A stretch of 23,430 nt of DNA from a virus, in the IMG/VR virus record IMGVR_UViG_3300003876_000009, positions 1 through 23,430 of that record; one strand, 5' to 3'. Below the pieces are notes generated by a model. The model made no database searches. It saw only the letters and a program-made list of their open reading frames with translations, and was not told the origin of the DNA. Both the position numbers and the translations under genes were made by a program. Below, in pieces: positions 1-22,192 of the stretch (positions are counted from its first letter, which is position 1; each line of letters opens with the position of its first letter).

Positions 1-67
1 TTTCCGGCTCAAGATATTCGAGCGTTGGCCGGACAATTTGTTCTCTGAATTGCTTGGCGTCCATCAT
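1..67 (-). CDS. Start of a lysis or virion gene, cut by the window edge
   Basis: Only the first 22 codons are present. The protein begins MMDAKQFREQIVRPTLEYLE and runs open through position 1. From memory, proteins starting like this (DAKQFRE..VRPTLE.L) occur in tailed phages near lysis and tail genes, and some have been suspected of a lysozyme-like role, but too little is visible to assign one. The start follows the TGA of the membrane-protein gene by one base, so translation is probably coupled. Two ATG codons are adjacent (67 and 64) and I cannot choose between them. Confidence 0.6.
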   Translation of the reverse strand, partial: MMDAKQFREQIVRPTLEYLEPE

Positions 68-68
68 A

Positions 69-371: not shown

Positions 372-407
372 GCAATAGAAGATTTAGGATAGATAATTGT
401 GAAACAA

Positions 408-2464: not shown

Positions 2465-2473
2465 GAAAATATC

Positions 2474-6766: not shown

Positions 6767-6838
6767 GGTTACACCAAATTTAACGCATTAATATTTTGAG
6801 CAGCACCTCAATCATGCAATCTAATGCTGTTCATTTAT

Positions 6839-7507: not shown

Positions 7508-7510
7508 AAT

Positions 7511-7939
7511 TCACCTCGATTGGAACATAGCAGCAGGCTCATTTTCATAAATGCCATCAAGTGTTCCAATTCGCTTCAATATTCCATGTCTGGCTACATG
7601 CACAAACAAGTTCTTGTCTTTCTGATTACACCAGCCAACCAATAGCTTGTTCTTCCGTTCTTCATTGAAGAATTTAACAATGCCTTCAATAACGTTACGT
7701 TTAGACGCCCATGGGAACCACATTATGTCGCCAATTATCTCAATTGGCCCCGCATAAAGTCCAAATATGACTCCGATTGGCCTGAATCCTTTTTTCGTCG
7801 TTGCCTCAATAATCCATGCATCATCATAACGAAGATCAATCTCTTCAATGACCGAATCAGCAAACTCTTTCGGGTCAATGATATCATCTGCCATTATTCT
7901 CTTTGCAGCCCATAGATACTTGATATCATCTTCAATCAT
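7511..7939 (-). CDS. GNAT-fold-like phage protein (T7 gp13-like in position)
   Basis: From ATG 7939 this gives a 142-aa protein starting MIEDDIKYLWAAKRIMADDI. Its alternating beta/alpha pattern includes AWIIEATTKKGFRPIGVIFG, a strand pair (EIIGDIMWFPWASKRNVIEGI), a helix with NEERK, and a C-terminal HGILKRIGTLDGIYENEPAAMFQ. This resembles acetyltransferase (GNAT)-fold proteins that several podoviruses encode between tail-hub and internal-virion genes, T7 gp13 being the best known. Whether it acetylates anything is unknown. The frame stays open to 8155, but residues before 7939 are Lys/Ser low-complexity sequence produced by overlap with the hub gene. The first ATG after the hub stop is the better start, although its ribosome site (GGAAGGAAAG) is about 13 bases away. 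Confidence 0.7.
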   Translation of the reverse strand: MIEDDIKYLWAAKRIMADDIIDPKEFADSVIEEIDLRYDDAWIIEATTKKGFRPIGVIFGLYAGPIEIIGDIMWFPWASKRNVIEGIVKFFNEERKNKLLVGWCNQKDKNLFVHVARHGILKRIGTLDGIYENEPAAMFQSR

Positions 7940-7979
7940 ATCCCGATAACTGACTTTCCTTCCAAGAGTCCGTGAAAGC

Positions 7980-9554: not shown

Positions 9555-10251
9555 TTAAAGGATCTGTGTAATTAGTCGTTGATCTGATTGGCAGCCATGA
9601 GCGCTTCATCTGCTTTTTGGTCAACAGCCTGGACGCACGGCCCATTGAAGCCTTGTATATTCCTGCGTCAAATTCGCTTCGTTGATCGCGCTTCCATATT
9701 TCCGCAACAGCAGGGACTACAGCACGGAAGACAGCGTCAGAGAAAGGAACTGCATCAGCGGCTGCTGATAAAGAAATGTCCTTATCATATCGATATTTGT
9801 AGATTCGACCGTTAAATTCTGATGTTGGGGAGCGATCTACATAAAGCTTCCCGTCTGTTTCACGAATCGCACAATTAGTAGGAAGCCCTGTATAATTCCC
9901 AGGGTAAGACTGAGACATTACCATATCGATATACCCACCAGGGTATTTGATAATATACTGGCCATTCGTCTCATCTAGCAGTGGGAATCTCAGTTGAACA
10001 AGATCATCAGCAAGGGCATATTCTCTCGTATCAGTTGCGAGAGTAATTGTTGCTTCAGCAAGTTCTTGAGGGAACGGAAGGTCAGACTCGGAATAAAGCT
10101 GTTCTACAACCTCATTCCAAGCCTGAATTGCTACATCAATGTAGGTTTGACGAGGTGAGTCCGTGAGAGTCGCAAGAACTCCAGAATCACCATTGATAAT
10201 TCTGACTTTTTTGAGTACCTCATTCGTCGCATTTAGTAGTGTCTTGGCCAT
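9547..10251 (-). CDS. Head-tail adaptor (tail accessory factor, gp4/gp11-like)
   Basis: This 234-aa protein begins MAKTLLNATNEVLKKVRIIN, then TYIDVAIQAWNEVVEQLYSE, a helical pair seen in podovirus adaptor proteins that attach below the portal (P22 gp4, T7 gp11 in role). The middle is beta-rich (REYALADDLVQLRFPLLDETNGQ), and the C-terminus returns to helices (VVPAVAEIWKRDQRSEFDAG) with a basic end. The frame extends to a TTG at 10257, but ATG 10251 has AAGG nine bases before it, so I used that. The first 32 bases overlap the preceding gene and the last 8 overlap the hub gene, as usual in this packed block. Confidence 0.7.
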   Translation of the reverse strand: MAKTLLNATNEVLKKVRIINGDSGVLATLTDSPRQTYIDVAIQAWNEVVEQLYSESDLPFPQELAEATITLATDTREYALADDLVQLRFPLLDETNGQYIIKYPGGYIDMVMSQSYPGNYTGLPTNCAIRETDGKLYVDRSPTSEFNGRIYKYRYDKDISLSAAADAVPFSDAVFRAVVPAVAEIWKRDQRSEFDAGIYKASMGRASRLLTKKQMKRSWLPIRSTTNYTDPLNG

Positions 10252-10792
10252 CTTCAAGTACCTTGATTAGGTCTGGCTTCTTGTCGGTATTCTTCGTCTT
10301 AATGCCACGCTCCTTGCAGAGTTTCTTCAGCTCAAAATGGCCCATTGCAGATAGATCAAGATCACCTCCTTTTTCGGCTTCCTGGTCAGAAACAGATGAT
10401 TCAATAGGCTTTTCACCCATCATCTGCTCCATCATCTTGGTCAGCTTTTCAACTTGCGCTTTAAGCTTGGTATTCTCGTCTTCAACAACTTCCTTTGAAG
10501 ACAGCAATTCGTCGTAATTAATGTTCTTGAAAGATGAAGCGTGAGGCTTTTCAACAGGATACATTTCTACTGAAACGTTACCATTTTCATCTTTATTCTG
10601 TACCTGTTCCCAGTCTCCAGCAGACAGAGGGTTTACTCCAGCTCCTTCAAGGATTGGAATCATTACCGTCTTAGCTGCACCGTCAGGATAAGGAATATTG
10701 TTGGCCTTTGCCAAGTCCCATAGCTGCTTACGACGCATTCTCTGTAATAGAGGTCGACTATCTTCAGATACCAATCCAGCTAATCCAGCCAT
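10220..10792 (-). CDS. SAP/HeH-like domain protein between capsid and adaptor
   Basis: This 190-aa protein has two similar helix-extended-loop-helix-like segments. One is N-terminal (about 15-53, QRMRRKQLWDLAKANNIPYP) and one C-terminal (about 150-180, GHFELKKLCKERGIKTKN then DLIKVLE). Between them lies a coiled coil (about 100-125, EDENTKLKAQVEKLTKMMEQ). SAP/Rho-N-like modules of this kind bind nucleic acid in other proteins, and phages often carry one at the end of a head-completion protein. A link to DNA-filled capsids is plausible but unproven. The ribosome site GAGGAGG before ATG 10792 is among the strongest in the block, so the protein is probably abundant. Confidence 0.65.
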   Translation of the reverse strand: MAGLAGLVSEDSRPLLQRMRRKQLWDLAKANNIPYPDGAAKTVMIPILEGAGVNPLSAGDWEQVQNKDENGNVSVEMYPVEKPHASSFKNINYDELLSSKEVVEDENTKLKAQVEKLTKMMEQMMGEKPIESSVSDQEAEKGGDLDLSAMGHFELKKLCKERGIKTKNTDKKPDLIKVLEDGQDTTKCDE

Positions 10793-10841
10793 ATTACCTC
10801 CTCAAAGTGGGGCCGACCGAAGCCGACCCCTGTTTGGTTAT

Positions 10842-11915
10842 TTACAGACTCGTTGCACCAGAGCGGATGCCACGACCCCAGTTAGCATTGAGGAGCTGGC
10901 CAGTATGCCAAGCCTTCCATGCAATCGTAGAGATTTCATTGTAAGGATCGGAAGTACCACCAGAACCCAAACCCTTGACGATGAGTTCGACAGGGCCAAG
11001 CTCATCACCAGCAGTAAAGATGCCGTCACCATACGATTCACCGAATCCGACAGAACCGAGACAATCACGACCATAGATCACAGTGGTGTATAGATCGACG
11101 TTAGTAGTACCGTTCAAACCAGTAGAGCCGATACTAACGCCAGAATCAGCATCAACGCTCGCATCTTCACTGGAAATGAACCTTACGCCCTTTCCTGCGA
11201 CAGTCAACGTGCCGAACTCACCTGGCGCTGTTGCAGTCTGTCCAGCGTAGGTTTCAACACTCTTGAAACCAGCCAAATCAGTGATATCAACAGCAACATC
11301 AGGATGGGTCAGTCCCCAAAAAGCAGGAAGAATCGGCGTAGTACCGACATTCGAGCTTCCATTGGTCATCGGCATGAAGGTCGTAGCGCTGTTTTTATCC
11401 AGAGTATTGAGGACACTACGAATTGAAGACTTGGTGATCTTCGAGCTAACAGCCGCATCATTAGCTGCTCCACCTGCATAGACAAGCGTCAGATTGTCTT
11501 CAGCAATATCACGCTGGAGACGATTCACAGACTGACCAGCATTAATGCCGATAACTTCCATGATCTTGTCCATCTGTCCATTGAAGTTGAACAACTCAGC
11601 TTCTTCATTAAGAATGACAAAATTGCCATACTTGGAGACAGTCGCAGTGTAGTCAGTTACCGACAATGCAGCAGAACTACGGCCCTGCATATACGATGCA
11701 GTACCAGTCAACTCTGCAATGGCTGTAGTGGACGGAGTGAGGTTTTCAATCCGCCGCCAACTTACCGTTGCAGATCCTCGATTCTTCTGAAGTTCGCCAG
11801 GCATCGTGCCAATAAAATATGGGGCACGAACCTTGGCGTTCCGCAGAAGGGTCTGTTGAAATATCACGTTTACCGGCTTGGTAAGGTTCGTGGTATCAGA
11901 GACAGTTAAAGCCAT
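10842..11915 (-). CDS. Major capsid protein, N4-gp56 family
   Basis: This 357-aa protein fits the N4-gp56-type HK97-fold capsid family. It starts MALTVSDTTNLTKPVNVIFQQTLLRNA. It has the early segment GSATVSWRRIENLTP, a mid-region ELFNFNGQMDKIMEVIGINA helix, a PILPAFWGLTHPDVAVDI segment (in this family the Hx-DV stretch is conserved), and a C-terminus NEISTIAWKAWHTGQLLNAN that is characteristic. Length is within the family's usual 300-400 residues. AAGGAG lies just before ATG 11915, fitting high expression. The scaffold-like gene precedes it by 14 bases, and no separate protease gene is seen. Confidence 0.9.
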   Translation of the reverse strand: MALTVSDTTNLTKPVNVIFQQTLLRNAKVRAPYFIGTMPGELQKNRGSATVSWRRIENLTPSTTAIAELTGTASYMQGRSSAALSVTDYTATVSKYGNFVILNEEAELFNFNGQMDKIMEVIGINAGQSVNRLQRDIAEDNLTLVYAGGAANDAAVSSKITKSSIRSVLNTLDKNSATTFMPMTNGSSNVGTTPILPAFWGLTHPDVAVDITDLAGFKSVETYAGQTATAPGEFGTLTVAGKGVRFISSEDASVDADSGVSIGSTGLNGTTNVDLYTTVIYGRDCLGSVGFGESYGDGIFTAGDELGPVELIVKGLGSGGTSDPYNEISTIAWKAWHTGQLLNANWGRGIRSGATSL

Positions 11916-11929
11916 GATTTACTCCTTGC

Positions 11930-12481
11930 CTACTTTAGTCCTGCCTTGAATCTGGCGAATTCGGCATCGCTCATTTGATTCAGGTTAGGCATTTCTGTAG
12001 CAGGCGCTTGATTAGACGCATTACGAACAGCGTTAACCATGGCTGATGTGTCTTCTACAATCGGATTCGTATACTTATCACGGAACTTAGATCCCAATGA
12101 CTTGATTACCTTATTGAAAGCCTGTGGATTTGACTTGCGATTAGCCCAAGCAACACGAAGTCGCTCATCTTTACGGGCCTGCGTATCTATCCATGCCTCC
12201 ATAAAATCGTCATCGAAATCTGATTCGCCACGAATCTCTTTGACCACATTGGACATATCAGATTGGTATTCTTCCTGCTCAATACGCGTTTCGAGGGCCT
12301 TAATCCTCTCGGCGTAATCATCAGAAGATTGCTGTTCACCAGCAGGCTGTGCTTGATTAGCCTGCGTTTCAGTTTCGGATTCAAACTCACTCAGGAGAGA
12401 ATCCAGATCCTGTGCGTCACCATTGTCAACAGTCGGCTCTGCCACTGCATCCTCGGAGACCACGGCTTGCTCTTCACTCAT
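11930..12481 (-). CDS. Scaffolding protein candidate
   Basis: This 183-aa, strongly acidic N-terminal, helical protein begins with an Asp/Glu/Gln-rich low-complexity region (about 1-60). A coiled coil follows (about 62-90, DYAERIKALETRIEQEEYQS), then a helical domain rich in Arg/Lys/Asn and a C-terminal helix (QMSDAEFARFKAGLK). Composition, size and position immediately before the major capsid gene match podovirus scaffolds, which line the procapsid and leave before DNA fills it. Three possible starts exist. The TTG at 12496 lies inside the AAGGAG region. ATG 12484 is only 3 bases from AAGGAG, and ATG 12481 is 6 bases away, so I chose 12481. It overlaps the previous gene by 8 bases. Confidence 0.75.
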   Translation of the reverse strand: MSEEQAVVSEDAVAEPTVDNGDAQDLDSLLSEFESETETQANQAQPAGEQQSSDDYAERIKALETRIEQEEYQSDMSNVVKEIRGESDFDDDFMEAWIDTQARKDERLRVAWANRKSNPQAFNKVIKSLGSKFRDKYTNPIVEDTSAMVNAVRNASNQAPATEMPNLNQMSDAEFARFKAGLK

Positions 12482-12689
12482 CATATTCTCCTTCAAGAAT
12501 ATTTATAATTTCATCGTTTTCATCTAAACGACCACTCTCATAAGCCCAGTCATGGACTTTTGTATCACCATCACCCTTTCTATAGCGCACCTTCCGGTCC
12601 CTGCGTAATGATTCCAGGAAGCTGGCCCATTGCGGGTTCCGCTGTAACTCCCTCAACAGCATCTTGTCGTTTGAGGATAATATCAACAT
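12474..12689 (-). CDS. Small conserved phage protein overlapping the portal gene end
   Basis: This 71-aa basic-acidic protein contains LLRELQRNPQWASFLESLRR, a tract with RKVRYRKGDGD, then HDWAYESGRLDE and an acidic C-terminus. The combination 'LL.ELQ..P....L......RYR.G....WAYESG..D' recurs, from memory, in small genes between portal and scaffold of short-tailed phages. Its function is not known to me. About 110 bases lie inside the 3' end of the portal gene in another frame, so part of the DNA codes for two proteins. GAGAGGGG about 10 bases before ATG 12689 supports that start over the in-frame ATG at 12662. Its end overlaps the scaffold start. Confidence 0.7.
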   Translation of the reverse strand: MLILSSNDKMLLRELQRNPQWASFLESLRRDRKVRYRKGDGDTKVHDWAYESGRLDENDEIINILEGEYDE

Positions 12690-14388
12690 CTGTCCATTTC
12701 CCCTCTCTCAGAGTCTGCTCCATCGCTGCTTCCATATCGATTGAAGGTTTAATGCCTTGCGCTTGATATTGAGTATTGATCTGATCAATCTGCAAAGCAA
12801 GTTGCAGCGACGACATTCTGGCGCTTCTAATTGCTTCTTCTTCTGAAGGCCCGCCAGAGCCATGAGCAATAAAGAAAACATTTTCTGGCAATGTTTCTTT
12901 TGAAACAGTAACGAATGCTCCATAACTTTCTATAAAGATATCAGTGGATTGTAGTGTATCACGCCCCATTCTATATTCCATCTCCAGCCATCTCTTCAGC
13001 GGATTCTTCAATACAGATTTGACGTAATCTACCGTTCTTACAGTTCCTCTTGATAACTCTGCCTGCTTTGCAAAAGCAGTAGTATGTGAGACAGTTTGCG
13101 CCCCAAGTCGCGGGGCATTTACTCCAGTAACATCATTATACTGCTGTAGAAGCCCCATATAGATTGAGAATAATGCGCCTGCATCTCCAACAATTATAGG
13201 ATCAACGTCTCCTGTTGTCGGGATCGATGCCCCAGGATATAAACTTGGGCCACCATTTTTGGCAAAATAAGGATCATCAGCATCATAAGTTAGTGGTGGC
13301 TGTGTGTTAATTGCAGCAGCCATTAACATGCGATTTAGTGCCTCAACAGCGGCTATCTGAATCGGCATCCCCTTCATTAGAGGTGAAGTTGCATAAGGTG
13401 ATTCAATATTCTCGCAATGATACGGGAATTCGATATAAGTACACCCGTATGGGTTTTCTCTATATCTGATTACCCTATGCGCTGGCTCTTTGCCTTTCTT
13501 ACCTTCAATAACGGTAATGAGGACATTCGGAAGGAATAATGGTCGTCCTGTTTTCCTTGGAACGACCAAATCACCTTCATATTCAATAACTTGAATGTTT
13601 CCTGAATTATCACCTTCAATGCCTTGAAGATTTGAAGGAATCCAGCCTCCACCCATGTTCCTTGGGTCTTTATTCCCCTTTCTGGAAGAAAGCTGAATAT
13701 CTTTTAGTCGGTAATATTTACATTCAATTGTTCCAGGATTGATGAAAATTCCCTCATTCATTACCGCCGCCGGGCTATCATCCAGATAGGTATTTTTAAG
13801 GCTCCTTGGGACAAGAACTGGGATCATCTTCTCTGAAGCCTTACCATCACGATCAACAATGGTCTGCTTCACCATTCGCCCTCGACCTATGCCCGTTCCA
13901 TAAGCAAAGGCTTCAGCATTAATCTTGTCGAGGTTCCCCCAGAAATCATATTTTGAATGAAAATGATCCAGCGTACCGGCTACCAACTTATCGACATTAT
14001 CCTGATTTATCGTGCTCGGTACATCATTCTCGTCCCCTGAAATCATCGAAGTCAGATCAATACTATCAAGATAACTGTCAGTCACATTGGCGTGAGCCTG
14101 GAACCAAGGGCCTGAATCAGGAGACAATAGCCTGCGAGCATCTGCCGTCAGGACTTCGAGTGTCTGGGCTTGCAGAGGGAGTTCAGTTTCAGGCATCCAT
14201 GCCTTGTTAATATCAGGACGGCCATCGGCATCCAGCTTATAAGATATATCTGGAGTCATCGCAATCTGACGATCAATTGTCTTGATTGCCTTGTCTAAAT
14301 CTTTCCTGCGATCACGTCTCCGCTTTAGTTCATCTGTTATGAACGACGAAATGTGATTCCAGTCATCGCTAGTTATGCGTCTTGCCAT
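12580..14388 (-). CDS. Portal protein
   Basis: This 602-aa protein forms the dodecameric channel at the capsid vertex. It begins MARRITSDDWNHISSFITDE, with a long N-terminal helical/charged part and a PETELPLQAQTLEVLTADAR segment. An AFAYGTGIGRGRMVK motif (about 160-175) follows, then a stretch with PRSLKNTYLDDSPAAVMNEG. The C-terminal half has helices LMKGMPIQIAAVEALNRMLM and NDVTGVNAPRLG...TTAFAKQAELSRGTVRTVDYV, typical of podovirus portals. Length fits (T7 gp8 536 aa, P22 gp1 725 aa). A GTG at 14394 is in frame, but ATG 14388 is likelier; an ATGTGA sits just upstream out of frame. It overlaps the 112-aa gene by 20 bases. Confidence 0.85.
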   Translation of the reverse strand: MARRITSDDWNHISSFITDELKRRRDRRKDLDKAIKTIDRQIAMTPDISYKLDADGRPDINKAWMPETELPLQAQTLEVLTADARRLLSPDSGPWFQAHANVTDSYLDSIDLTSMISGDENDVPSTINQDNVDKLVAGTLDHFHSKYDFWGNLDKINAEAFAYGTGIGRGRMVKQTIVDRDGKASEKMIPVLVPRSLKNTYLDDSPAAVMNEGIFINPGTIECKYYRLKDIQLSSRKGNKDPRNMGGGWIPSNLQGIEGDNSGNIQVIEYEGDLVVPRKTGRPLFLPNVLITVIEGKKGKEPAHRVIRYRENPYGCTYIEFPYHCENIESPYATSPLMKGMPIQIAAVEALNRMLMAAAINTQPPLTYDADDPYFAKNGGPSLYPGASIPTTGDVDPIIVGDAGALFSIYMGLLQQYNDVTGVNAPRLGAQTVSHTTAFAKQAELSRGTVRTVDYVKSVLKNPLKRWLEMEYRMGRDTLQSTDIFIESYGAFVTVSKETLPENVFFIAHGSGGPSEEEAIRSARMSSLQLALQIDQINTQYQAQGIKPSIDMEAAMEQTLREGKWTDVDIILKRQDAVEGVTAEPAMGQLPGIITQGPEGAL

Positions 14389-14707
14389 ATTCACATTTCT
14401 CTATAAGAGTTCTGGCTTCTTTCAATGTCTTGTTGATTCTTGCTTGACGCTTTGCTTCTTGTGTCCAGCCTTCATCCTTGTCATGCAGCGCGTCGAACTC
14501 AATCCAGACGGCGAAATCCACCTTTCCTTTACTATTACGCCCGCCGACTGCATAAGCAGTCTGGTAATATCCTAGAGGATATTCACCAGGACGATCATTC
14601 TCCCAATCTGTTTCAGCAATCCCAATGATCGCTTCTGGGTCATCAACCTTTCTTACCGGCCTTAGACCCTTGATCTGGCAAAACCGCTCGAATTCAGGCC
14701 AATCCAT
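14369..14707 (-). CDS. Small protein between terminase and portal, unknown function
   Basis: This 112-aa, charged, soluble protein starts MDWPEFERFCQIKGLRPVRK. A mixed alpha/beta middle follows, with PLGYYQTAYAVGGRNSKGKV and DFAVWIEFD, then a basic helical C-terminus (QEAKRQARINKTLKEARTLI). It has no membrane segment and no cysteine motif. It lies exactly between large terminase and portal, with one base after the terminase stop, and overlaps the portal start. The place suggests a role in packaging or head assembly, but I recognise no family. Confidence 0.7.
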   Translation of the reverse strand: MDWPEFERFCQIKGLRPVRKVDDPEAIIGIAETDWENDRPGEYPLGYYQTAYAVGGRNSKGKVDFAVWIEFDALHDKDEGWTQEAKRQARINKTLKEARTLIEKCEYGKTHN

Positions 14708-14708
14708 A

Positions 14709-16202
14709 TTACATCCTCATCATAGGGGCCATTTTAGCCCTATTTGTCCGAATTGTCTGTGTAGAGGCAAAGCGTTTCATCATTATTGCATAGAAAACAG
14801 CTTTTAATGTGTCATCTCTACGGTCAACGATCTTTATCTTGCCGTCTTTTGCCTTAACATGGTAATTTCGTCGCTCTTCAAGATAAATCGAACAGGTCTT
14901 GAAGACCTTGAATCTACCAGTCCTCTCTCTCTCCTTTATCTCCTCAATGATTGGCCATTGAGGTTGAGCCCCGCCTTTATCGTTCTTGTACCTGGCAGAC
15001 CGGCTAAGCATGTTCACCCCATGCGTCTTATAGACCTCAAACAATCTGCGCCCAACTTCAGATCCCTTGTCCCTGTTTACGCCGTCATGTGGCCATGATA
15101 CTGGTATCCAGTCTCCCCTGGAATTAATAGCAGATGAGTGGTAGGTTGGAAGCTCACCTTTTTTCCTATAACAATCATAGACGTATATCGTATCTGTGTC
15201 GCGGTCATAAGCAACCCATCCAGCGCCAAACGGATGATCAATACCGAAATCTATTCCGCAAATCCTAGGCCAGTGACTGGGAATCTCTATAGGATCGATA
15301 GCTATTTCATCTTCACTTGTCGTAAAGATTCTACCCTCACCCATCATCGGCACGCCTTGAGTTCGCGCCTGAACCTCATGATCTGGATAGGATTCGATCA
15401 TTGAGGCCTTGTCTTCAGGGTTCAGATGGGGAGCATCGTCCCACGTCGCCGTTTCCATCCATACTTGAGAAGAGTTTGAATCCTGAAAGTGAAGGACGAT
15501 ATCTGTCTGCCCAAGCAAAGGGGTGAAAGTTACCATCATTATTCCTTTAGAGGTAAGCAGTCTAGTCAGCGCCTCAGTGTAAATCTTGAAGTCTTCAGGC
15601 TCCTCATCAAGCCAGACAACGTCAGGCTGCGTACCCTGCCACTTTCTCCAGCCCTGTTCATAGGTCTTCAGAACACAAGTGGAGATCCCTCCAGAGATAT
15701 GGCGTACTTTGAATGTGTCTACAACATCTGAAACACCGGCTTGCCGCATTTTTGGCCGGCCAATAATCATATTCTGCGGAAGAAAACCTGTACCAAGTTC
15801 TTCCTTCGATATTCCACCGAGCAGTTCTTTCTGCACGATATCACGAGAGGTTTCATTTGTTGGAGAGCCTGTCCAGATTAGAACAGGTTTACTGAATCTC
15901 TTGCCTTCCCACCAATCAGGATAATTCCCCGTCATGTGGAGAGATGTTTCGTATGCCGCTGAAATCGATTTTCCGACACGATTAGCGCAGATGATCATCC
16001 TTTCACGATGATTTGCACCTGCATTATGGAAGTCTAATTGCCATGGCTTATTTGACCACTTTGCCCATACCCCGCCTTCATTCTTTGCCTTCCATGTAAT
16101 GCCGGTTGTTAAAGTGTCAGGATGCCCATATGGAAGATGAATTTTCATCTTGTTGTATTTATAATAGTTAGCTACTACTTTTGCAGCTTCAGCAACATCC
16201 AC
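14709..16202 (-). CDS. Terminase large subunit (packaging ATPase-nuclease)
   Basis: This 497-aa motor pumps DNA into the procapsid through the portal and cuts it. The ATPase part has a deviant Walker A (ANRVGKS, residues 73-79), a Walker B with catalytic acid (VVWLDEE, 195-201) and a coupling motif (TFTPL, 225-229). The RNase-H-like nuclease shows GIDFGIDHPFG (Asp318) early and RRDDTLKA (Asp463/464) late, with WPHDG at 370-374 as in related terminases. The frame as read starts at GTG 16202. A better N-terminus with ATG lies at 16240 but needs a -1 shift (see findings). The small subunit is not adjacent but sits 2.7 kb upstream, behind five other coding regions and a non-coding gap. Confidence 0.92.
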   Translation of the reverse strand: MDVAEAAKVVANYYKYNKMKIHLPYGHPDTLTTGITWKAKNEGGVWAKWSNKPWQLDFHNAGANHRERMIICANRVGKSISAAYETSLHMTGNYPDWWEGKRFSKPVLIWTGSPTNETSRDIVQKELLGGISKEELGTGFLPQNMIIGRPKMRQAGVSDVVDTFKVRHISGGISTCVLKTYEQGWRKWQGTQPDVVWLDEEPEDFKIYTEALTRLLTSKGIMMVTFTPLLGQTDIVLHFQDSNSSQVWMETATWDDAPHLNPEDKASMIESYPDHEVQARTQGVPMMGEGRIFTTSEDEIAIDPIEIPSHWPRICGIDFGIDHPFGAGWVAYDRDTDTIYVYDCYRKKGELPTYHSSAINSRGDWIPVSWPHDGVNRDKGSEVGRRLFEVYKTHGVNMLSRSARYKNDKGGAQPQWPIIEEIKERERTGRFKVFKTCSIYLEERRNYHVKAKDGKIKIVDRRDDTLKAVFYAIMMKRFASTQTIRTNRAKMAPMMRM

Positions 16203-16240
16203 AGTTTCAGGCTCTAATCTCTAATGTCATTCATGCGCAT
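16203..16240 (-). other. Possible frameshifted N-terminal extension of large terminase
   Basis: ATG 16240 follows AAGGA by 10 bases and reads MRMNDIRD then TAG (16216-16214). The terminase frame just before its GTG reads R-LEPETVDVAEAA. Joining them by re-reading one T at 16217 gives MRMNDIRD-LEPETVDVAEAA, a smooth helical start. A missing T in GATT(T)AGAG would explain it. It could equally be a chance 8-codon leader before a GTG-started terminase. Confidence 0.4.
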
Positions 16241-16314
16241 ATAAGAGCCGTCCTTGGCACGGGAGGAACTTTTGGTAATCTGACTCTAAAACACCTGGAA
16301 GCAACACGAACAAG

Positions 16315-16665
16315 TTAAGTCAGGTCAGCAACAATAACCCGGATAGTCGTTGAAGCAAGATCGGCCGTCGCGCCAGATTCATTCTGCATCCGGTACTCAA
16401 CAGTGTTGGCAGCAGACACATAGGCAGTAAATGTCATGTCGACGATATCTACACCAGCCGAGACACCAATAACAGCATCTCCAAGCTCAACACCAACAAC
16501 AGTAAGAGATCCGGTCTCACCGGCACCATCGACCAGCGAACCGAAGTCGTGAGTCTCAGACCCATAGAAGAATCCCTTAATGTTGCCATCAGCAGTCAAA
16601 GCCAGAATATTGGCTGCCTGCTGCTCCTGAGTCTGAACAGCATTGAAATCAACTTCATTACCCAT
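16315..16665 (-). CDS. Small beta-rich virion protein, decoration candidate
   Basis: The 116-aa protein from ATG 16665 begins MGNEVDFNAVQTQEQQAANI and then forms a beta-sandwich-like domain. Strands include GSLTVVGVELGDAVIGVSAG, VDMTFTAYVSAANTVEYRMQN and a C-terminal STTIRVIV. The phrase 'GD.V.G......D..FTAYVSAA.TVE.R..N.SG...DLAS.T.RV.V' is one I know from small phage proteins near capsid or tail genes, some thought to be head decoration. GGAGAG at 7 bases before the ATG fixes this start. The frame stays open to a GTG at 16788, but those 41 codons overlay the end of the glycosyltransferase and are not protein-like. It lies before terL, not next to the capsid gene. Confidence 0.7.
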   Translation of the reverse strand: MGNEVDFNAVQTQEQQAANILALTADGNIKGFFYGSETHDFGSLVDGAGETGSLTVVGVELGDAVIGVSAGVDIVDMTFTAYVSAANTVEYRMQNESGATADLASTTIRVIVADLT

Positions 16666-16803
16666 GTTTCTCTCCAAACGGATCATGTCCGTATCTGTAT
16701 GAACCCCAATGGCCCAATTCAATTGAAGGGTCAAGAATGACCTTACCGCCCATTTTAGTCCATTTTCGGCAGAAACTGTAATCCTCACTCAACTGAATAC
16801 CAA
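16658..16803 (-). pseudogene. C-terminal part of the glycosyltransferase in the shifted frame
   Basis: In the frame one base away from the upstream glycosyltransferase, the minus strand reads GIQLSEDYSFCRKWTKMG, then GKVILDPSIELGHWGSYRYG, HDPFGEKHG and TAA (16660-16658). This is the expected C-terminus of phage GT-A enzymes: the acidic SED(Y).FC.RW segment and the HxGS near the end. No start codon precedes it in frame, so it can only be made by a frameshift. The TAA overlaps the decoration-like gene start at 16665. Confidence 0.7.
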
Positions 16804-17306
16804 ATAATCGGACAATCAAACCAACCATGGCATTTTCCTACATGACCTTCTTCATGATCTAGCTCAGGATATTGCGCCTGCATTGCGACAAAAACTTGAC
16901 GCTTGATCAGCATGAAGCCAGTGCCGGCATAATCTACCTCAGTAAGACCACTCAACTCATCAAGATCAACTAGCCTACCATCCTTCCACGCACTGACAGG
17001 TTTGTCAGGTCTCTTCATTGAATAAGCGCCTACAGCAACAGGCACATCAAGATTCCACAGCTTGGCCACGTCCTCAGCGGAAAACTCAATATCGGCATCG
17101 ATAAACATCAAACTTTCATAGTCAGTCTTGAGGAAAGTGGCTACCGAAGTATTCCTGGCCCTCTGGATCAGAGACTCATTAGACGTGAACAGGAAGTCAT
17201 GAGGAACTTCAGACGCCAGCAGAGACTCCTGAAGGGATAGAATAGACCTCATGTAGGGGACAGTGGCCTGACCACCATAACATGGCGTGCAAATTAAAAT
17301 GCTCAT
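16785..17306 (-). CDS. GT-A glycosyltransferase, N-terminal part (frame broken)
   Basis: The 173-aa frame covers most of a nucleotide-sugar glycosyltransferase of about 215 aa. It begins MSILICTPCYGGQATVPYMR, has an active-site-like region FLFTSNESLIQRARNTSVAT and a DxD-like metal site (LMFIDADIEF). A second part includes YSMKRPDKPVSAWKDG and AGTGFMLIKRQVF, typical of phage GT-A/GT2 enzymes. It stops after FDCPIIWYSVE at TGA 16787-16785. Removing one T from ATTATTTGG (16802-16804) restores FDCPII-GIQLSEDYSFC and the missing 48 C-terminal residues. Such enzymes may modify virion parts, phage DNA or host surface sugars. Start ATG 17306 overlaps the 87-aa gene as ATGA. The short frame lacks the catalytic SED segment, so it is probably inactive unless a shift occurs. 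Confidence 0.8.
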   Translation of the reverse strand: MSILICTPCYGGQATVPYMRSILSLQESLLASEVPHDFLFTSNESLIQRARNTSVATFLKTDYESLMFIDADIEFSAEDVAKLWNLDVPVAVGAYSMKRPDKPVSAWKDGRLVDLDELSGLTEVDYAGTGFMLIKRQVFVAMQAQYPELDHEEGHVGKCHGWFDCPIIWYSVE

Positions 17307-17566
17307 GATCCATCCCCAGTAACAGGGTCAATTCTTAGATCGACATTCACGTCCATTATGTCTCGCTGAAGAACGCTAATCTCTCCTAGAACTTTCATCA
17401 CATTCTCCTCTATGCTATTCCATCCATTACCACTACATCCATCAGACATTACTCCAATTATCGCTATACCAACAAGATCGCCAGACTTCGCTTGCTCAAG
17501 AAGACCCTCTATAAACTCTATAACATCAGGAACAGGCTTTTTCTCAGAAAGTTTAATGATAGTCAT
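17303..17566 (-). CDS. Small conserved phage/prophage protein, unknown function
   Basis: This 87-aa protein has VIEFIEGLLEQAKSGDLVGI, then AIIGVMSDGCSGNGWNSIEE, then LGEISVLQRDIMD. The pattern 'LLE.A..G...GIAI......D.....GW......LGE...L.R.IMD' is familiar from small proteins near phage regulatory or early genes in proteobacterial prophages, without a known function. It lies between the HTH gene and the glycosyltransferase and overlaps both by ATGA. I cannot assign a role. Confidence 0.7.
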   Translation of the reverse strand: MTIIKLSEKKPVPDVIEFIEGLLEQAKSGDLVGIAIIGVMSDGCSGNGWNSIEENVMKVLGEISVLQRDIMDVNVDLRIDPVTGDGS

Positions 17567-17772
17567 TCAACAATCCCCTTAACAACATCTCGAAATTTAT
17601 GCCAACTGGCCAACTCCGACTTCAATTCATCAATCTCAGACAACAGCTCAAGATGCCTCTCGGCATAGCCAGGAAGCTCTCCTTTCCACTTGCTGACAGT
17701 GCTAGGACTAACCCCCAACGACTCCGCAAAAGCCGATTTTGTGGCGAAATTACCATATTTCACAGATTCCAC
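17563..17772 (-). CDS. Small helix-turn-helix DNA-binding protein (Cro-like)
   Basis: This 69-aa protein has a helix-turn-helix at about residues 11-31 (TKSAFAESLGVSPSTVSKWK), where LGVSPSTVSKW is the turn and recognition helix. A C-terminal helix follows (HLELLSEIDELKSELASWHK) that could dimerise. Small size and lack of a sensor domain fit a Cro-like or late-gene regulator. Its start is probably GTG 17772; a second in-frame GTG lies at 17763. It is the first gene of the long leftward unit, coupled by ATGA to the next gene. A palindrome over the likely promoter (17803-17827) suggests self-regulation. Confidence 0.75.
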   Translation of the reverse strand: MESVKYGNFATKSAFAESLGVSPSTVSKWKGELPGYAERHLELLSEIDELKSELASWHKFRDVVKGIVE

Positions 17773-17802
17773 GATACCCGCCCCGTAGATTTCTAACTAA
17801 TG

Positions 17803-17827
17803 TGTGCGTTTTTGTGAATATAGCACA
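17803..17827 (-). promoter_or_regulatory. Promoter with overlapping palindromic operator for the leftward late unit
   Basis: On the minus strand, TGC-TATATT (17825-17817) is an extended -10 with no good -35, so it may need an activator. It lies inside a 25-bp imperfect palindrome with TGTGC at one end and GCACA at the other, plus inner TT/AA matches. The predicted start near 17810 is about 40 bases upstream of the HTH gene. Binding of the HTH protein here would control the whole unit. Predicted by eye only. Confidence 0.5.
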
Positions 17828-17960
17828 TCCGTTTGGATTTTGCTGGATATATTGTGGGTGCTAGCAGCTGCTTCCTCGGCCCAAGGGGGTGGGGGTGACC
17901 CCGTACCCATGCCACGCTGGCAACACAAGGGCAGGTGAGCAGTGCGCATAATATGTGATT

Positions 17961-18137
17961 ATGTTAAATCAAGCAGAGAAACATAACGATATCAATGGGT
18001 TGCGTTCTCGGTATGCAGTGAAGCTGAACAGAATGCCGGTTCAATGGCGGTTGTTGCTCAATAACAACGCTGCAGGCTGGTGGGATGCGAGGCAATTATG
18101 GCGTGAGAAGCCGTGTGAGGCGATATCTAACGCTTAG
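17961..18137 (+). CDS. Doubtful 58-aa ORF, Trp-rich
   Basis: The frame reads MLNQAEKHNDINGLRSRYAV, then VQWRLLLNNNAAGWWDARQL and WREKPCEAISNA. The composition is protein-like (four Trp) and not clearly a shadow of another gene. There is no ribosome site. A CATAAT at 17947-17952 ends 8 bases before the ATG, the same distance as at the 31-aa ORF at 21384, so a leaderless transcript is conceivable, but no -35 is visible. It runs against the leftward units and stands alone. I rate it as uncertain. Confidence 0.3.
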   Translation: MLNQAEKHNDINGLRSRYAVKLNRMPVQWRLLLNNNAAGWWDARQLWREKPCEAISNA

Positions 18138-18465
18138 GCAGGCATTGGTAGCTGGTTAGCTGTAGAAAGGCTTGTGAAGGCTGTCAGGGCTGGTGTCATG
18201 CGGTGCTGGCGGGTGCTGGCATTTGGATCTGGCAACACACGGGGCCAGCGCCAGCACTTTCCGCTTGTCCATTACTATTTGATTGAGTGATATTGGCTTG
18301 GTCAGGATTGGCTGCTATACGGTTTTGTTTGTGCGCAGGTTGTGAGTGAGTGTGTAGCTTGCGGTTGGTTTGTGTGGTGCTTGGTTGCTGGCAGTGTGCT
18401 GGTCTGCGGGGATGTAGTGCCGGCGGGATTGGTTGCCGTCCTTGGCTATGGGGCTGGTCGGTAGG
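18138..18465. other. Gene-free, G+T-rich stretch behind terS
   Basis: I see no convincing gene on either strand. The right two thirds are strongly strand-asymmetric: by hand count about 72-82% G+T on the plus strand from 18301 to 18470. At 18203-18211 and 18249-18257 lie perfect inverted arms (GTGCTGGCG / CGCCAGCAC, 37 bases apart), and GTGCTGGC occurs again at 18213. This could be a packaging (pac/cos) site next to terS, a replication origin, a terminator region or a non-coding RNA; the sequence alone does not decide. Confidence 0.5.
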
Positions 18466-18939
18466 TCAGTGTTTAACTGCGTCGGTATTGATACCCGCGC
18501 GGGCTAGTGTCTCCAGGGCTACCTCTAGCTCAGCCTCCTGGTTGATCGTGATCTCGGCCTTCTCGACCATGTGGCCGGCGCTCTTGCCCTTGTTAACTGT
18601 GGCGTTTACGGCTGCCCCCATATTGCCTGAGGCGACCGATAGCTGGCGCAACTCCTCTAGCTCGGCCAGGAACTGCTCGTGCGTGTAGTTCTGGGCTGTG
18701 ATTGTCTCCCGCTGGAGATAGCTTATCCATTGGCTAACCTTGGGATGAGTCTTTAGCTTGCTGGCCTCACACCACACAGTGTTTGGAGTGCTGTTCGACG
18801 TATCGTAGGCCGCACGATAGGCGTCAGACGCGGTCAATCCTTGGCGCAGCCCCTCGACGAATTTTAGTTGGCGCGGTGTCAGGTCAGGCAGCCCCTCGGC
18901 GTCCATGTCAATGCCGTCCGTTTTCTGATTCCGCGCCAT
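18466..18939 (-). CDS. Terminase small subunit
   Basis: This 157-aa protein recognises phage DNA and hands it to the large terminase. It has the typical order of an N-terminal LTPRQLKFVEGLRQGLTASD then AYRAAYDTSN, a helix-turn-helix-like ASKLKTHPKVSQWISYLQRE segment, and a central helical oligomerisation part (HEQFLAELEELRQLSVA). A C-terminal Glu/Ala-rich tail (EAELEVALETLARAG) probably contacts the large subunit. The frame also opens at GTG 18948, but GAGGTGATC lies 4-12 bases before ATG 18939, so I chose that. Unusually, it is not next to terL but forms its own leftward unit with its own promoter. Confidence 0.85.
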   Translation of the reverse strand: MARNQKTDGIDMDAEGLPDLTPRQLKFVEGLRQGLTASDAYRAAYDTSNSTPNTVWCEASKLKTHPKVSQWISYLQRETITAQNYTHEQFLAELEELRQLSVASGNMGAAVNATVNKGKSAGHMVEKAEITINQEAELEVALETLARAGINTDAVKH

Positions 18940-18961
18940 AACGATCACCTCTACTCGATAA

Positions 18962-18982
18962 TATCAGTATAACACACTGATA
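18962..18982 (-). promoter_or_regulatory. Promoter and palindromic operator of the small terminase gene
   Basis: TATCAGT (18962-18968) and ACTGATA (18976-18982) are perfect 7-bp arms around a 7-base spacer. On the minus strand the centre reads TGT-TATACT, an extended -10 (18974-18966), without a clear -35. A protein bound to the palindrome would cover the -10. The predicted start is about 20 bases before the terS ribosome site. Another reading is a small hairpin in an RNA from the opposite strand. Confidence 0.5.
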
Positions 18983-19007
18983 ATATAGGCATATATTTTA
19001 TCATTAT

Positions 19008-19037
19008 TTGATTATCTCTAATTGTTATTTCTATTAT
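19008..19037 (+). promoter_or_regulatory. Candidate promoter of the rightward small-gene set
   Basis: TTGATT (19008-19013), an 18-base spacer and TATTAT (19032-19037) resemble a sigma-70 promoter, in AT-rich DNA between the diverging terS and rightward genes. The start would fall near 19044, giving a leader of about 50 bases before ATG 19094. Divergent promoters on each side of the 18962-18982 palindrome could be regulated together. Confidence 0.4.
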
Positions 19038-19093
19038 TGGAACTGATTGTCTATTGTTTAGGTACACCAACACGAACCAGCAGGAGAACGATC

Positions 19094-19333
19094 ATGGCTA
19101 CTATCACTTACTACGCAGACAACGGCAGCATGGGAGATACCAGCGAGCACGATTGCGACAAATACCGCGAATGGGCTCAGCGTGAACTCGAACGGAAATA
19201 TCCCAGTCACAAAATCGAGGTTACGCAGGAACAGGCGACGGTTACCGCCCGGACTGATGACCTCGAAAATGAGGAGGAAATCCTCGATTTCTGCGCCCGC
19301 CTCTGGGATAGCTGCCCGTGGGATTGGGCGTAG
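19094..19333 (+). CDS. First small protein of the rightward set, acidic, unknown
   Basis: The 79-aa protein from ATG 19094 begins MATITYYADNGSMGDTSEHD, continues with DKYREWAQRELERKYPSHKI and ends in an acidic helix plus a Cys/Trp tail (DFCARLWDSCPWDWA). The frame is open further upstream, but AGGAGA 7 bases before this ATG decides the start. There is no known motif. It is small, acidic and expressed first from the likely early promoter, like many phage host-takeover or anti-defence proteins, though nothing in the sequence proves such a role. Confidence 0.7.
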   Translation: MATITYYADNGSMGDTSEHDCDKYREWAQRELERKYPSHKIEVTQEQATVTARTDDLENEEEILDFCARLWDSCPWDWA

Positions 19334-19357
19334 TCGTCCAGCGACAGGAGAGCACCC

Positions 19358-19507
19358 ATGATTATTAGCAAAAACTATGCATTGCGTCTAATCCGAGAGG
19401 GTAAAGCCCGCAAGGCTGGCAAACTGGAGCCCGACGACAGATATCGCGTATACGTGATAATCGACCGGCTGGATTTGCAGCGCGTGGATCACTACCTAGA
19501 GGGCTGA
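19358..19507 (+). CDS. 49-aa protein, basic, unknown
   Basis: This short gene reads MIISKNYALRLIREGKARKA, then KLEPDDRYRVYVIIDRLDLQ and a terminal VDHYLEG before TGA. AGGAGA sits 8 bases before the ATG, the same kind of site as its neighbours, and the stop is 2 bases before the next start (GTG 19510), so the two are probably coupled. The frame has balanced, protein-like composition. It is easily missed because of its length. No family recognised. Confidence 0.65.
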   Translation: MIISKNYALRLIREGKARKAGKLEPDDRYRVYVIIDRLDLQRVDHYLEG

Positions 19508-19509
19508 CC

Positions 19510-19695
19510 GTGTACACGCTAACCGTTACCCGAGAAATCAACGGCCGCACAATGTCGCGCAGGTATGAGGGACGCAATCTGCCGGTGCTGATCGTGCAGG
19601 CCGGCGAGTATGATACCGCCACAATCACTGACCCGGATGGGCGCACGGTTTACGCGCTCGAATTCCCATCTCTATTGGCCAATCAGGCCAGTTAA
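19510..19695 (+). CDS. 61-aa protein with GTG start, unknown
   Basis: The protein begins (V)YTLTVTREINGRTMSRRYEG and reads like a small beta-sheet (NLPVLIVQAGEYDTATITDP, then DGRTVYALEF). The GTG start is 2 bases after the previous stop, with GAGGG 7 bases before it. This points to coupled translation, and no ATG in frame offers an alternative near the 5' end. Function unknown. Confidence 0.6.
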   Translation: MYTLTVTREINGRTMSRRYEGRNLPVLIVQAGEYDTATITDPDGRTVYALEFPSLLANQAS

Positions 19696-19713
19696 ACCAA
19701 AGGAGGCAATACC

Positions 19714-19935
19714 ATGCCACATAAACAACTGGATTTGCTAGAGGGTAGGACGTACCGGACCCGGAACGGCGCCTCCGTTTCGCTCATTAGCCTTGATGAC
19801 AGAAACGGCACTAATTACCAGATACTCGGTATGGTTCACGGGGAGGAGTATACGCGGGTTTGGCTCCGTAGCGGGGCCTACCTGACCCCAAACTATGCGC
19901 ACGATTTAGACCTCATGCCCGACCAATCTATCTGA
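19714..19935 (+). CDS. 73-aa beta-rich small protein, unknown
   Basis: It begins MPHKQLDLLEGRTYRTRNGA and continues with strand-like stretches VSLISLDDRNGTNYQILGMV and a charged end (NYAHDLDLMPDQSI). AAAGGAGG seven bases before ATG is a near-perfect ribosome site. Short strands with Gly turns suggest a small barrel. The context is the rightward small-gene set. No family recognised. Confidence 0.65.
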   Translation: MPHKQLDLLEGRTYRTRNGASVSLISLDDRNGTNYQILGMVHGEEYTRVWLRSGAYLTPNYAHDLDLMPDQSI

Positions 19936-19953
19936 ATCAAAGGAGCACACGAA

Positions 19954-20373
19954 ATGAAATATAACAATCTCAGACTGACGCAGCCTACGGCGGAATACTC
20001 AATGCGAACGTGTGGACCGTACTGGTATCTAGTAACCACCAATGGCATCTCCCATGTGGCGTTTACCCGCCGCGAGTCACTCCTTAAGTGGCTTGATGAG
20101 CGCTCCCTTCAACTCTCTGCCGACCTAGTTGACGAGGGCGAATTCTCGACACAAGAGATAGTCGGGACGTATTCTGACGTAATGCACATGAGTCACCGCG
20201 CTCTTTACGATATACCGGAACCGATCCTAGAGACGAGGACGCTATCGAACGGCAAATATACGCGGGCTTACATAATTGACGGGCCTTGCGGGCGAGAGGT
20301 TCATTTCCTCAACTCAAATGTGAAAAATAGAATGGAATTTGACTACCAGGAAAGCCGCGCCCTATTTGGGTAG
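19954..20373 (+). CDS. 139-aa soluble protein, unknown
   Basis: It begins MKYNNLRLTQPTAEYSMRTC, with a central RRESLLKWLDERSLQLSADL helix and a C-terminal part that includes DIPEPILETRTLSNGKYTRA and DGPCGREVHFLN. The end reads ESRALFG, and its last 16 bases including the stop recur at 20729 (see findings). AAAGGAG lies before ATG 19954. There is no transmembrane, zinc-finger or nucleotide-binding motif I can name. It is one of the larger proteins of the set. Confidence 0.65.
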   Translation: MKYNNLRLTQPTAEYSMRTCGPYWYLVTTNGISHVAFTRRESLLKWLDERSLQLSADLVDEGEFSTQEIVGTYSDVMHMSHRALYDIPEPILETRTLSNGKYTRAYIIDGPCGREVHFLNSNVKNRMEFDYQESRALFG

Positions 20374-20421
20374 GGACGCCGCAACGATGCGCCAGTATTC
20401 ACACACAATGGAGGCACCATT

Positions 20422-20493
20422 ATGACACAGCAAGCGAAAACCGCCTTCTATGCGCTGGCACTGCCTTCATCACTGGCCCCGCAGGCCATCTAA
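20422..20493 (+). CDS. 23-aa peptide ORF, hydrophobic
   Basis: The reading is MTQQAKTAFYALALPSSLAP then QAI and TAA. GGAGG lies 7 bases before ATG 20422, and the ORF fills an otherwise empty 135-base gap between two genes with the same spacing habit. The peptide is short and hydrophobic in the middle, with no clear membrane span. It may be a real micro-gene or chance; its ribosome site is the main support. Confidence 0.35.
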   Translation: MTQQAKTAFYALALPSSLAPQAI

Positions 20494-20508
20494 CTGAGGA
20501 TCGAAACC

Positions 20509-20721
20509 ATGAGTAATTTAGACGAACTATTCGACGGCTGCTACGTAAAGAGTATGGGCAAATTTTTTAAAGTGCGCAAAATTGCGATTAATGATGACGA
20601 GGCCAACGCATTTTGTGCAACTCACCATGATACTGGTGTGATCGCGTGCGACCGACATAGCGGGCTAGTTTTTATCGCCGATATCTATTCATCGCCATGC
20701 CGGTCTGATTGTATCGACTAG
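20509..20721 (+). CDS. 70-aa Cys/His-containing protein, unknown
   Basis: It begins MSNLDELFDGCYVKSMGKFF and includes NDDEANAFCATHHDTGVIAC, DRHSGLVFIADIY and a Cys-rich tail (PCRSDCID). Five Cys and three His are present, at residues spread through the chain. A small metal-bound fold is conceivable, but the spacing fits no zinc-finger pattern I know. GAGG stands about 8 bases before the ATG. Member of the rightward set. Confidence 0.6.
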   Translation: MSNLDELFDGCYVKSMGKFFKVRKIAINDDEANAFCATHHDTGVIACDRHSGLVFIADIYSSPCRSDCID

Positions 20722-20764
20722 ATGAGATGCGCCCTTTTTGGGTAACGCACAAGGAGAATTTGTA

Positions 20765-21367
20765 ATGCAATATTACTACTTGATCGACGACAGCAAACCA
20801 TTCCGCGGGTTCGCTAAGATGGTTTTCCGCTGTGAATCTGTCGACGCCGCGAGAGGGCTGGCCGCTGAATATGAGGCGGCTAACCCGGAAAAATCCCTGC
20901 GATTGGTTTATGAGGATAAATTCTTTACGCTGGTTGGACAGTTTGAGGAATCGTTGATTACTGCTCCGCTACCAATCACTGAAGCCGAGTATACCGAGGC
21001 GCTGGAGGTTCTTCCCCCATGCCGCTGGCATAACGTAGCCGGGTTTTCAGTGTTCCATTCCCTGGAGAGACTAACCGGCAAACTGGTTAACTGGTATGCC
21101 ACAAGCTCAGGTAAATATTGGGTGTGGATCGACTACGATAATACGCCCGATGAGGATCTGGCGACGAAACTGAGGGAGATCAACACTGAGGGAGATCAAC
21201 TCATGACAATGCAAGCACAGATTGCCATCTACGCAGCCCAACATGTTCACCAATGGGGCCACTTTGCAGCACGTCGCTATGCGATGGCTCGCGGTGTCTC
21301 GCCTCGTCTTTACCGGATTGCCAGGCAATGCGAAGCGCTCTATGGTTTACGTTATTGGAACACGTAG
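20765..21367 (+). CDS. 200-aa protein, probably a fusion; N-part resembles DUF1419
   Basis: The start MQYYYLIDDSKPFRGFAKMV is supported by AAGGAG about 8 bases before ATG 20765; the frame opens earlier at a TTG (20738) without a site. The N-terminal 140 residues include TEAEYTEALEVLPPCRWHNV, AGFSVFHSLERLTG and VNWYA, reminiscent of DUF1419 phage/plasmid proteins (from memory, not searched). The last 54 residues (from ATG 21203) are a basic helical unit, HFAARRYAMARGVSPRLYRI and ARQCEALYGLRY. A perfect 16-bp tandem repeat at the join (21169-21200), not a multiple of 3, indicates that two overlapping genes were fused by duplication. The function of either half is unknown. Confidence 0.65.
   Translation: MQYYYLIDDSKPFRGFAKMVFRCESVDAARGLAAEYEAANPEKSLRLVYEDKFFTLVGQFEESLITAPLPITEAEYTEALEVLPPCRWHNVAGFSVFHSLERLTGKLVNWYATSSGKYWVWIDYDNTPDEDLATKLREINTEGDQLMTMQAQIAIYAAQHVHQWGHFAARRYAMARGVSPRLYRIARQCEALYGLRYWNT
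21169..21200. repeat. Perfect 16-bp tandem duplication inside a gene
   Basis: ACTGAGGGAGATCAAC occurs twice in a row (21169-21184 and 21185-21200). Deleting one copy changes the frame: the upstream gene would end ...KLREINS with TGA, overlapping ATG 21203 as ATGA. The unit also contains a Shine-Dalgarno-like GAGGGAG, so the duplication doubles a ribosome site. Confidence 0.9.
21203..21367 (+). CDS. Possible separate 54-aa gene by internal start
   Basis: From ATG 21203 the frame encodes MTMQAQIAIYAAQHVHQWGH, then FAARRYAMARGVSPRLYRIA and RQCEALYGLRYWNT. GGGAG with 8-base spacing stands before the ATG, so this unit could still be started on its own even though it is now also read as the C-terminus of the 200-aa fusion. 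It is basic and helical with an Arg-rich middle. Function unknown. Confidence 0.4.
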   Translation: MTMQAQIAIYAAQHVHQWGHFAARRYAMARGVSPRLYRIARQCEALYGLRYWNT

Positions 21368-21375
21368 GCTATAAT
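21346..21375 (+). promoter_or_regulatory. Promoter of the second HTH gene, with a spacer palindrome
   Basis: TTTACG (21346-21351), an 18-base spacer and a perfect TATAAT (21370-21375) form the best sigma-70-like promoter in the window. It lies at the end of the preceding gene. TACGT (21348-21352) and ACGTA (21362-21366), 9 bases apart, form a small palindrome between the two boxes, a place where a repressor could block RNA polymerase. The transcript would start about at 21382-21384. Confidence 0.55.
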
Positions 21376-21383
21376 GCGCGCCC

Positions 21384-21479
21384 ATGTACTTGCGTCCATT
21401 CTATTACAAAGGAAAGTTATACTTCGTGCCGTCTAATTCAGGCGGCTACGAGCCTTTCCTGTGGGAGTTCATATTGTGA
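21384..21479 (+). CDS. 31-aa ORF, probably leaderless, coupled to the HTH gene
   Basis: The reading is MYLRPFYYKGKLYFVPSNSG then GYEPFLWEFIL and TGA. The ATG is 8 bases after TATAAT, i.e. at or within two bases of the expected transcription start, so there is no room for a ribosome site; leaderless starts of this kind are known, lambda cI being the example. The composition is aromatic-rich and coherent. Its stop overlaps the GTG of the HTH gene (TTGTGA), so it may act as a leader that couples translation. Confidence 0.5.
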   Translation: MYLRPFYYKGKLYFVPSNSGGYEPFLWEFIL

Positions 21480-21661
21480 AAGAGCAAGAGCTAAGGGGTT
21501 TGATTAAGTCAATGCCTGGTAATACCTGGGCTGATAAAGTAGAGGCGTGCGCTAACTTAACACAGCGATCAAAAGGGACAGTTTACAAATGGCTGGGCAA
21601 TACCCCGCCAGTCCCTGACCACATGCTAGACGTTATCCGCTACCGCACCGCCTCAAATTAG
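21476..21661 (+). CDS. Second small helix-turn-helix protein
   Basis: The 61-aa protein from GTG 21476 starts (V)KEQELRGLIKSMPGNTWADK. It has a helix-turn-helix-like middle (ACANLTQRSKGTVYKWLGNT, turn LTQRSKG, recognition helix GTVYKWL), then VPDHMLDVIRYRTASN. GGGAG lies 8 bases before this GTG; an earlier GTG at 21461 lacks a site. The architecture (small domain, W-[LK]-G after the recognition helix, and a final helix) parallels the leftward 69-aa HTH protein, so the two may form an antagonistic pair. The gene ends 3 bases before the stop of the opposing coiled-coil gene. Confidence 0.6.
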   Translation: MKEQELRGLIKSMPGNTWADKVEACANLTQRSKGTVYKWLGNTPPVPDHMLDVIRYRTASN

Positions 21662-21664
21662 TAC

Positions 21665-22192
21665 CTACAAGCTAGCAAGAATGCGCTTTTTCTCTTCAAT
21701 AGCGTCTAGGGCTGCTGTGACCTCGGCTTCTCTGGCGTCAAGTGCTGCGGATCGCTCCTTTGCCTCTTTTTCTGCCTTTTCTAGCAGGGCCTCGCGCTCT
21801 GACAATTCAGCGCTTTTTGCCTTGGTCAGCATCTCATACTTGCTGCGCTCTGCTTCAGCCTTTTCCAGATCCTCTTTTGCCCTCGCTATGAGGTTGAGTG
21901 ATTCGCTTTTTGCCTCGTCAAGGATCTTCTGCGCCTCCTTGACGGCCTTCTCGTTAAGCCCGGCGACTCGATCCCTATCTGCTTTTGCAGCAGAATAGAG
22001 TTTGTCAATCTCGTTTGCCTTACCGACCTTTTCAATGGCAGTATTTGCCTCCGCTATGAGGCCAGTTATTTCTTCAGCATAGCGCTGATATTCCTTACGA
22101 TCATCAAGGAAACGGATAAGGGAAAACAGATCGGTTACGCCAGGAGGATAATCGACACTTTTGAATCGAACTTTAGATGCTGAGCCCATCAT
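21665..22192 (-). CDS. Coiled-coil virion-type protein
   Basis: This 175-aa protein has a short N-terminal segment including VDYPPGVTDLFSLIRFLDDR and a long Ala/Glu/Lys coiled coil (about 35-170, e.g. AKEDLEKAEAERSKYEMLTK). Two adjacent ATG codons (22192, 22189) follow AGGGGGAT, which overlaps the stop of the gene before. No catalytic motif is seen. It ends the leftward block of four genes that continues from the right edge and is probably structural. Alternatives such as a scaffold- or fibre-associated chaperone cannot be excluded. Confidence 0.65.
   Translation of the reverse strand: MMGSASKVRFKSVDYPPGVTDLFSLIRFLDDRKEYQRYAEEITGLIAEANTAIEKVGKANEIDKLYSAAKADRDRVAGLNEKAVKEAQKILDEAKSESLNLIARAKEDLEKAEAERSKYEMLTKAKSAELSEREALLEKAEKEAKERSAALDAREAEVTAALDAIEEKKRILASL

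Follow-up and report, generated by a model that had tools for sequence, protein, structure and literature searches.

Two kinds of change that resemble the one described here have been published, namely indels that fuse overlapping neighbouring genes and tandem duplications that are reversible; the kind of event is thus already known. In Mycobacterium tuberculosis and M. bovis, five fusions with an overlapping ORF came about via indels, and the changes were called reversible (PMC1501019). There, as in the present locus, a small change in repeat number at a gene border joins ORFs that are separate in relatives; however, the mycobacterial indels lie in tracts of 1-2 bp units, whereas here a 16-bp unit is duplicated. 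Unlike those tracts, this unit carries the ribosome site of the downstream gene, so that the downstream start survives, and the fusion has no one-copy sister among the sequences found.

The second system is the penA beta-lactamase gene, in which de novo two-copy tandem repeats gave 9.3e-7 to 3.6e-5 revertants (PMC4169377). The likeness consists in a two-copy tandem duplication (9-60 bp in penA) within a gene, whose reversion restores the original. The penA repeats, in contrast, are multiples of 3, which keep the frame and alter a single protein, whereas 16 bp shift the frame; moreover, three are bordered by matching direct repeats, whereas the unit studied here has no border homology. No report closer than these two emerged when the literature was searched for overlapping phage genes fused by a duplication. 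By analogy with tandem duplications elsewhere, the present one would be expected to be reversible.

The Tandem Duplication and the Reading Frames It Joins

The DNA analysed, hereafter the window, comprises 23,430 bases from the genome of an uncultured phage. Its minus strand encodes terminase, portal-like and major head genes, and a run of small genes occupies the plus strand at 19.7-21.7 kb. At the opposite end, the neighbouring tail-spike-like genes at 408-2204 and 2474-3514 have a start region in common, located at 2058-2198 and 3353-3493 (both on the minus strand), with the pattern PSxSGYNxxPPPDDGT...NEITWxKHK, 71-77% identical DNA and a spacing of 1295; the pair looks like a duplicated virion-attachment part.

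Within the run of small genes, the unit ACTGAGGGAGATCAAC is present in exactly 2.0 copies with a period of 16 and 100% identity, the perfect doubling reported in a preliminary description of this DNA. The periodicity ends at both borders, with 0 matching bases beyond either side. This is the sole exact tandem repeat with an 8-60 bp unit in the window, and it has the top score among the seven rows returned by Tandem Repeats Finder; 100 first-order Markov windows, searched for units of 10-60 bp, contained two 10-bp repeats and none longer than 10 bp. A window-wide search that tolerated up to 3 mismatches gave no further copy of the unit, and a role as a direct-repeat operator was dropped on this ground. 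A special RNA fold across the repeat was also discarded, the z-score being -0.55, which is not better than shuffles.

Exact tandem repeats with 12-60 bp units are uncommon in the related viral and other loci, about 616 kb in all, and outside the CAT-rich arrays of L003/L004 every unit length is divisible by three; in a densely packed phage genome, a duplication that shifts the frame is therefore unusual. In one of these loci (L004:3796-3942, MG592458.1) the annotation presents the CAT-type microsatellite arrays as two CRISPR spacers plus a phosphate transporter gene, and is probably wrong.

The features of the locus are collected in Table 1. ATG 20765 opens the fused frame and TAG 21365-21367 closes it. 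The second copy of the repeat encodes the linker, and all 54 residues of B then follow from ATG 21203; directly 3' of the repeat, ...LREINS-TGA is still encoded in the original frame of A. The direct tandem copy (16 bp x 2.0) thus lies at the gene border and has a length that three does not divide. The preliminary description had argued that a single copy would let gene A terminate at ...KLREINS-TGA and gene B begin from its own ATG with an ATGA overlap, and that two copies give a single 200-aa frame as 16 cannot be divided by 3; the reading frames agree with it throughout.

Table 1. Coordinates in the window of the fused gene, its two parts and the duplicated unit.
Feature	Position	Strand	Basis
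Fused ORF, 200 aa: A 1-140, linker TEGDQL 141-146, B 147-200	20765..21367	+	ORF translation
Gene A part, 140 residues (one-copy form: plus S and stop, 141 aa)	20765..21184	+	relatives; distant DUF1419 kin
Gene B (54 aa) with its own ATG; the two-copy form puts it in frame with A	21203..21367	+	translation; relative in L001
TGA in the old A frame, stop of one-copy A; overlaps the B start as ATGA	21204..21206	+	sequence
Repeat copy 1, ACTGAGGGAGATCAAC	21169..21184	+	sequence; Tandem Repeats Finder
Repeat copy 2, identical, with the gene B ribosome site GAGGGAG	21185..21200	+	sequence; duplex energy

It had also been proposed that the repeated unit carries the ribosome site of B, and this is borne out by a GAGGGAG located 8 nt upstream of ATG 21203, whose duplex energy to the anti-SD sequence is -8.5 kcal/mol. 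This value equals that of the site of gene A itself and beats 95% of random 20-mers from the window (5% tail, -6.3); in the B relative described below, a GAGGGA is found at nearly the same distance from the ATG. As both the ATG and a strong ribosome site persist inside the fused gene, B is probably still made alone.

Relatives of the Two Genes

When the two halves were searched separately, as the preliminary description had suggested, nine distinct relatives of A and one of B were retrieved, all of them stand-alone genes. Fused relatives devoid of a repeat, which would have spoken against a fusion by duplication, were looked for among the relatives of A and of B and were not found.

Gene A has relatives in phages, viral contigs and plasmids; ten were translated and aligned, nine of them distinct (L003/L004, L058, L059 and L063-L068). 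Two near-identical Shewanella-host phages (L003/L004) were identified by tblastn and two viral contigs (L058, L059) by an alignment-based scan; L059, used as a query, led to a Marinobacter phage (L066), while L058 led by tblastn to 86 plasmid records, some of which are annotated as DUF1419 (E 3e-5). The family has a conserved core, LPPCRWHxxxGYSVFHxxERLTGxxVxWYA, over which two relatives show weak matches to DUF1419 (PF07215), a family of plasmid proteins: L058 with E 0.056 and 14.1 bits, and L003 with E 0.19 and 12.4 bits, both below the curated cut-off of 23 bits, which no A relative reaches. Because these scores are below the cut-off and the A protein of the window gives no match to the PF07215 model at E <= 1, it is not filed as a DUF1419 member; from the sequence comparisons it appears to be a distant relative of the plasmid DUF1419 proteins. 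At the DNA level, no relatives of the region 20400-21700 were found in phages or in E. coli genomes.

All nine distinct A relatives end between about 7 residues before and 14 residues after the one-copy stop, the distance being at most 2 residues for the four closest. Their C-termini, such as ...SQIANILKGI, ...EKLVKILNAYW and ...AQIAKKLQTKGL, each directly followed by the stop, compare with ...EDLATKLREINS in the window. A B-like piece is present neither in these nine genes nor elsewhere in their loci.

An AlphaFold2 model of the fused protein, built from four sequences, has a mean pLDDT of 72, with 10-residue block means of about 67-90 for residues 1-140 and of 39-54 for residues 141-200. The drop in confidence after residue 140 indicates that A is a complete domain ending at the old stop. 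A PDB fold search with the model gave a best E of 0.016 with a TM of about 0.2, which is meaningless.

The sole relative of B was found in the viral contig 3300026519_000027 (L001), with 72% identity across residues 1-46. It is a stand-alone gene that begins at the same MT and overlaps the upstream gene by ATGACTGA; this upstream gene, of 168 aa, is unrelated to A, and B thus stands without A in this contig. In both L001 and the window, B is followed by another small gene, which by eye looks HTH-like, and an upstream piece at 19561-19698 of the window is also common to the two, indicating that the neighbourhoods are related and that the slot occupied by A differs. Searches for B in phages, plasmids and genomes gave nothing credible; a match in the genome contigs (L060) was rejected, as it runs antisense within an integrase-like ORF. 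None of 47 viral contigs with a related terminase carries A or B; the same search also retrieved L001, the known carrier of B. The neighbouring gene at 19954-20373 gave no relatives when used as a query of the viral contigs. Among the sequences found, the adjacency of A and B is confined to this window.

Origin of the Fused Gene

For either part, the relatives (nine for A, one for B) are separate genes whose ends fall at the join, in agreement with the one-copy stop and with ATG 21203, as the preliminary description had anticipated in speaking of two overlapping genes that were fused. The reading according to which two ancestrally separate, overlapping genes were fused by the 16-bp tandem duplication is therefore well supported, with a probability of roughly 0.77. 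The viral-contig scans gave no close relative covering the site and no one-copy sister was found in them; the state before the duplication is accordingly reconstructed from relatives that are 34-72% identical.

The ancestral neighbours would have been A, with 141 aa, and B, with 54 aa, two phage genes of the early region that overlapped by ATGA. Duplication of 16 bp at the end of A would shift the A frame by one base, so that the TGA at 21204-21206 is bypassed and translation of A continues through the six residues TEGDQL into B, in B's own frame. The cost would be small, with A losing its last residue (S) and B remaining intact, and the second copy would keep the ribosome site of B 8 nt ahead of its ATG. 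The expected products are thus an A-B fusion and, by internal initiation, B alone; free A would no longer be made, and B would no longer be coupled to termination of A. The duplication may have been tolerated because the border was copied whole together with the ribosome site, at the expense of one residue of A and none of B, and its effect may be nearly neutral.

A gene border is indeed a place where a frame-shifting duplication can survive. One in three duplication lengths at the A/B border would fuse the frames, and chance plus survival would therefore suffice to account for the event. As for the cause of the duplication, simple slippage via border homology was dismissed, there being 0 homologous bases on either side. 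The two identical copies are compatible with a duplication that is possibly recent, and slippage between them could reverse it.

The second copy could also be an artefact of assembly or sequencing, or else a minority variant caught in the consensus, of a phage that normally has one copy and two genes. We consider this unlikely. In its favour, the duplication is known from one contig only, the separate state is found in all relatives, and the window has at least one further indel that is dubious or unfavourable. The latter emerged from the comparison with a second contig, 3300003877_000013 (L005), which equals positions 1-18287 of the window except for one substitution (550) and a 2-bp deletion in the window at 16802/16803. 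The deletion cuts the gene at 16785-17306 (minus strand), which encodes 173 aa in the window and 216 aa in L005; accordingly, the match to phrog_1574 extends to position 234 of 240 (124 bits) with the L005 version and to 188 (92 bits) with that of the window. This is a second frame-changing indel in the window, real or erroneous, and since L005 does not share it, an assembly or minority-variant explanation becomes likelier. Against such an explanation, the 18.3 kb common to the two contigs differ, that indel aside, by one base. In addition, short-read errors do not usually take the form of an exact tandem duplication of 16 bp, and repeats are more often collapsed than created by assemblers.

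The L005 contig stops at window position 18287, 2.9 kb before the duplication, and none of the other contigs in the collections searched extends over the site. Short imperfect tandem repeats (18032-18052 and 18202-18220) lie at this boundary, where L005 begins, and may mark an assembly break. At the other side the same contig (3300003877_000013, bases 13000-20137, L061) reaches about 1.85 kb past base 1 of the window, and this extension does not match the opposite end of the window; the window is therefore part of a longer genome, which measures at least 25 kb.

The preliminary description had also seen in the repeat an on/off switch. In such a phase-variable locus, the copy number of the unit would vary frequently enough for one-copy genomes with split A and B to coexist in the population with two-copy genomes making fused A-B and free B, as a selected translational switch with the ribosome site inside the repeat. 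The geometry allows it, one copy giving the split and two copies the fused proteins, and precedents are offered by the reversion of two-copy duplications in a bacterial gene at the frequencies reported for penA (PMC4169377) and by the fusion and fission of overlapping ORFs through indels, drawn as reversible in mycobacteria (PMC1501019). However, with only two copies and no microsatellite the array is not long enough to be hypermutable; no relative has a repeat at the A/B border, the second state is absent from all sequences found, and B is probably not switched off, since its start and ribosome site remain. The switch is thus unsupported and we regard it as very improbable. That the 200-aa protein is ancestral and the repeat an in-frame coincidence is scarcely credible: the frame is open as present, but every relative of either half is separate, and removal of one unit restores the ends found in the relatives.

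Significance of the Probable Fusion

If two separate genes were fused by the duplication, as we favour, the locus shows a gene fusion arising in one small step, and both proteins would survive the frame change because the overlapping border, with the downstream ribosome site, sits within the duplicated unit. Should both forms coexist, they would make it possible to watch a fused phage gene emerge.
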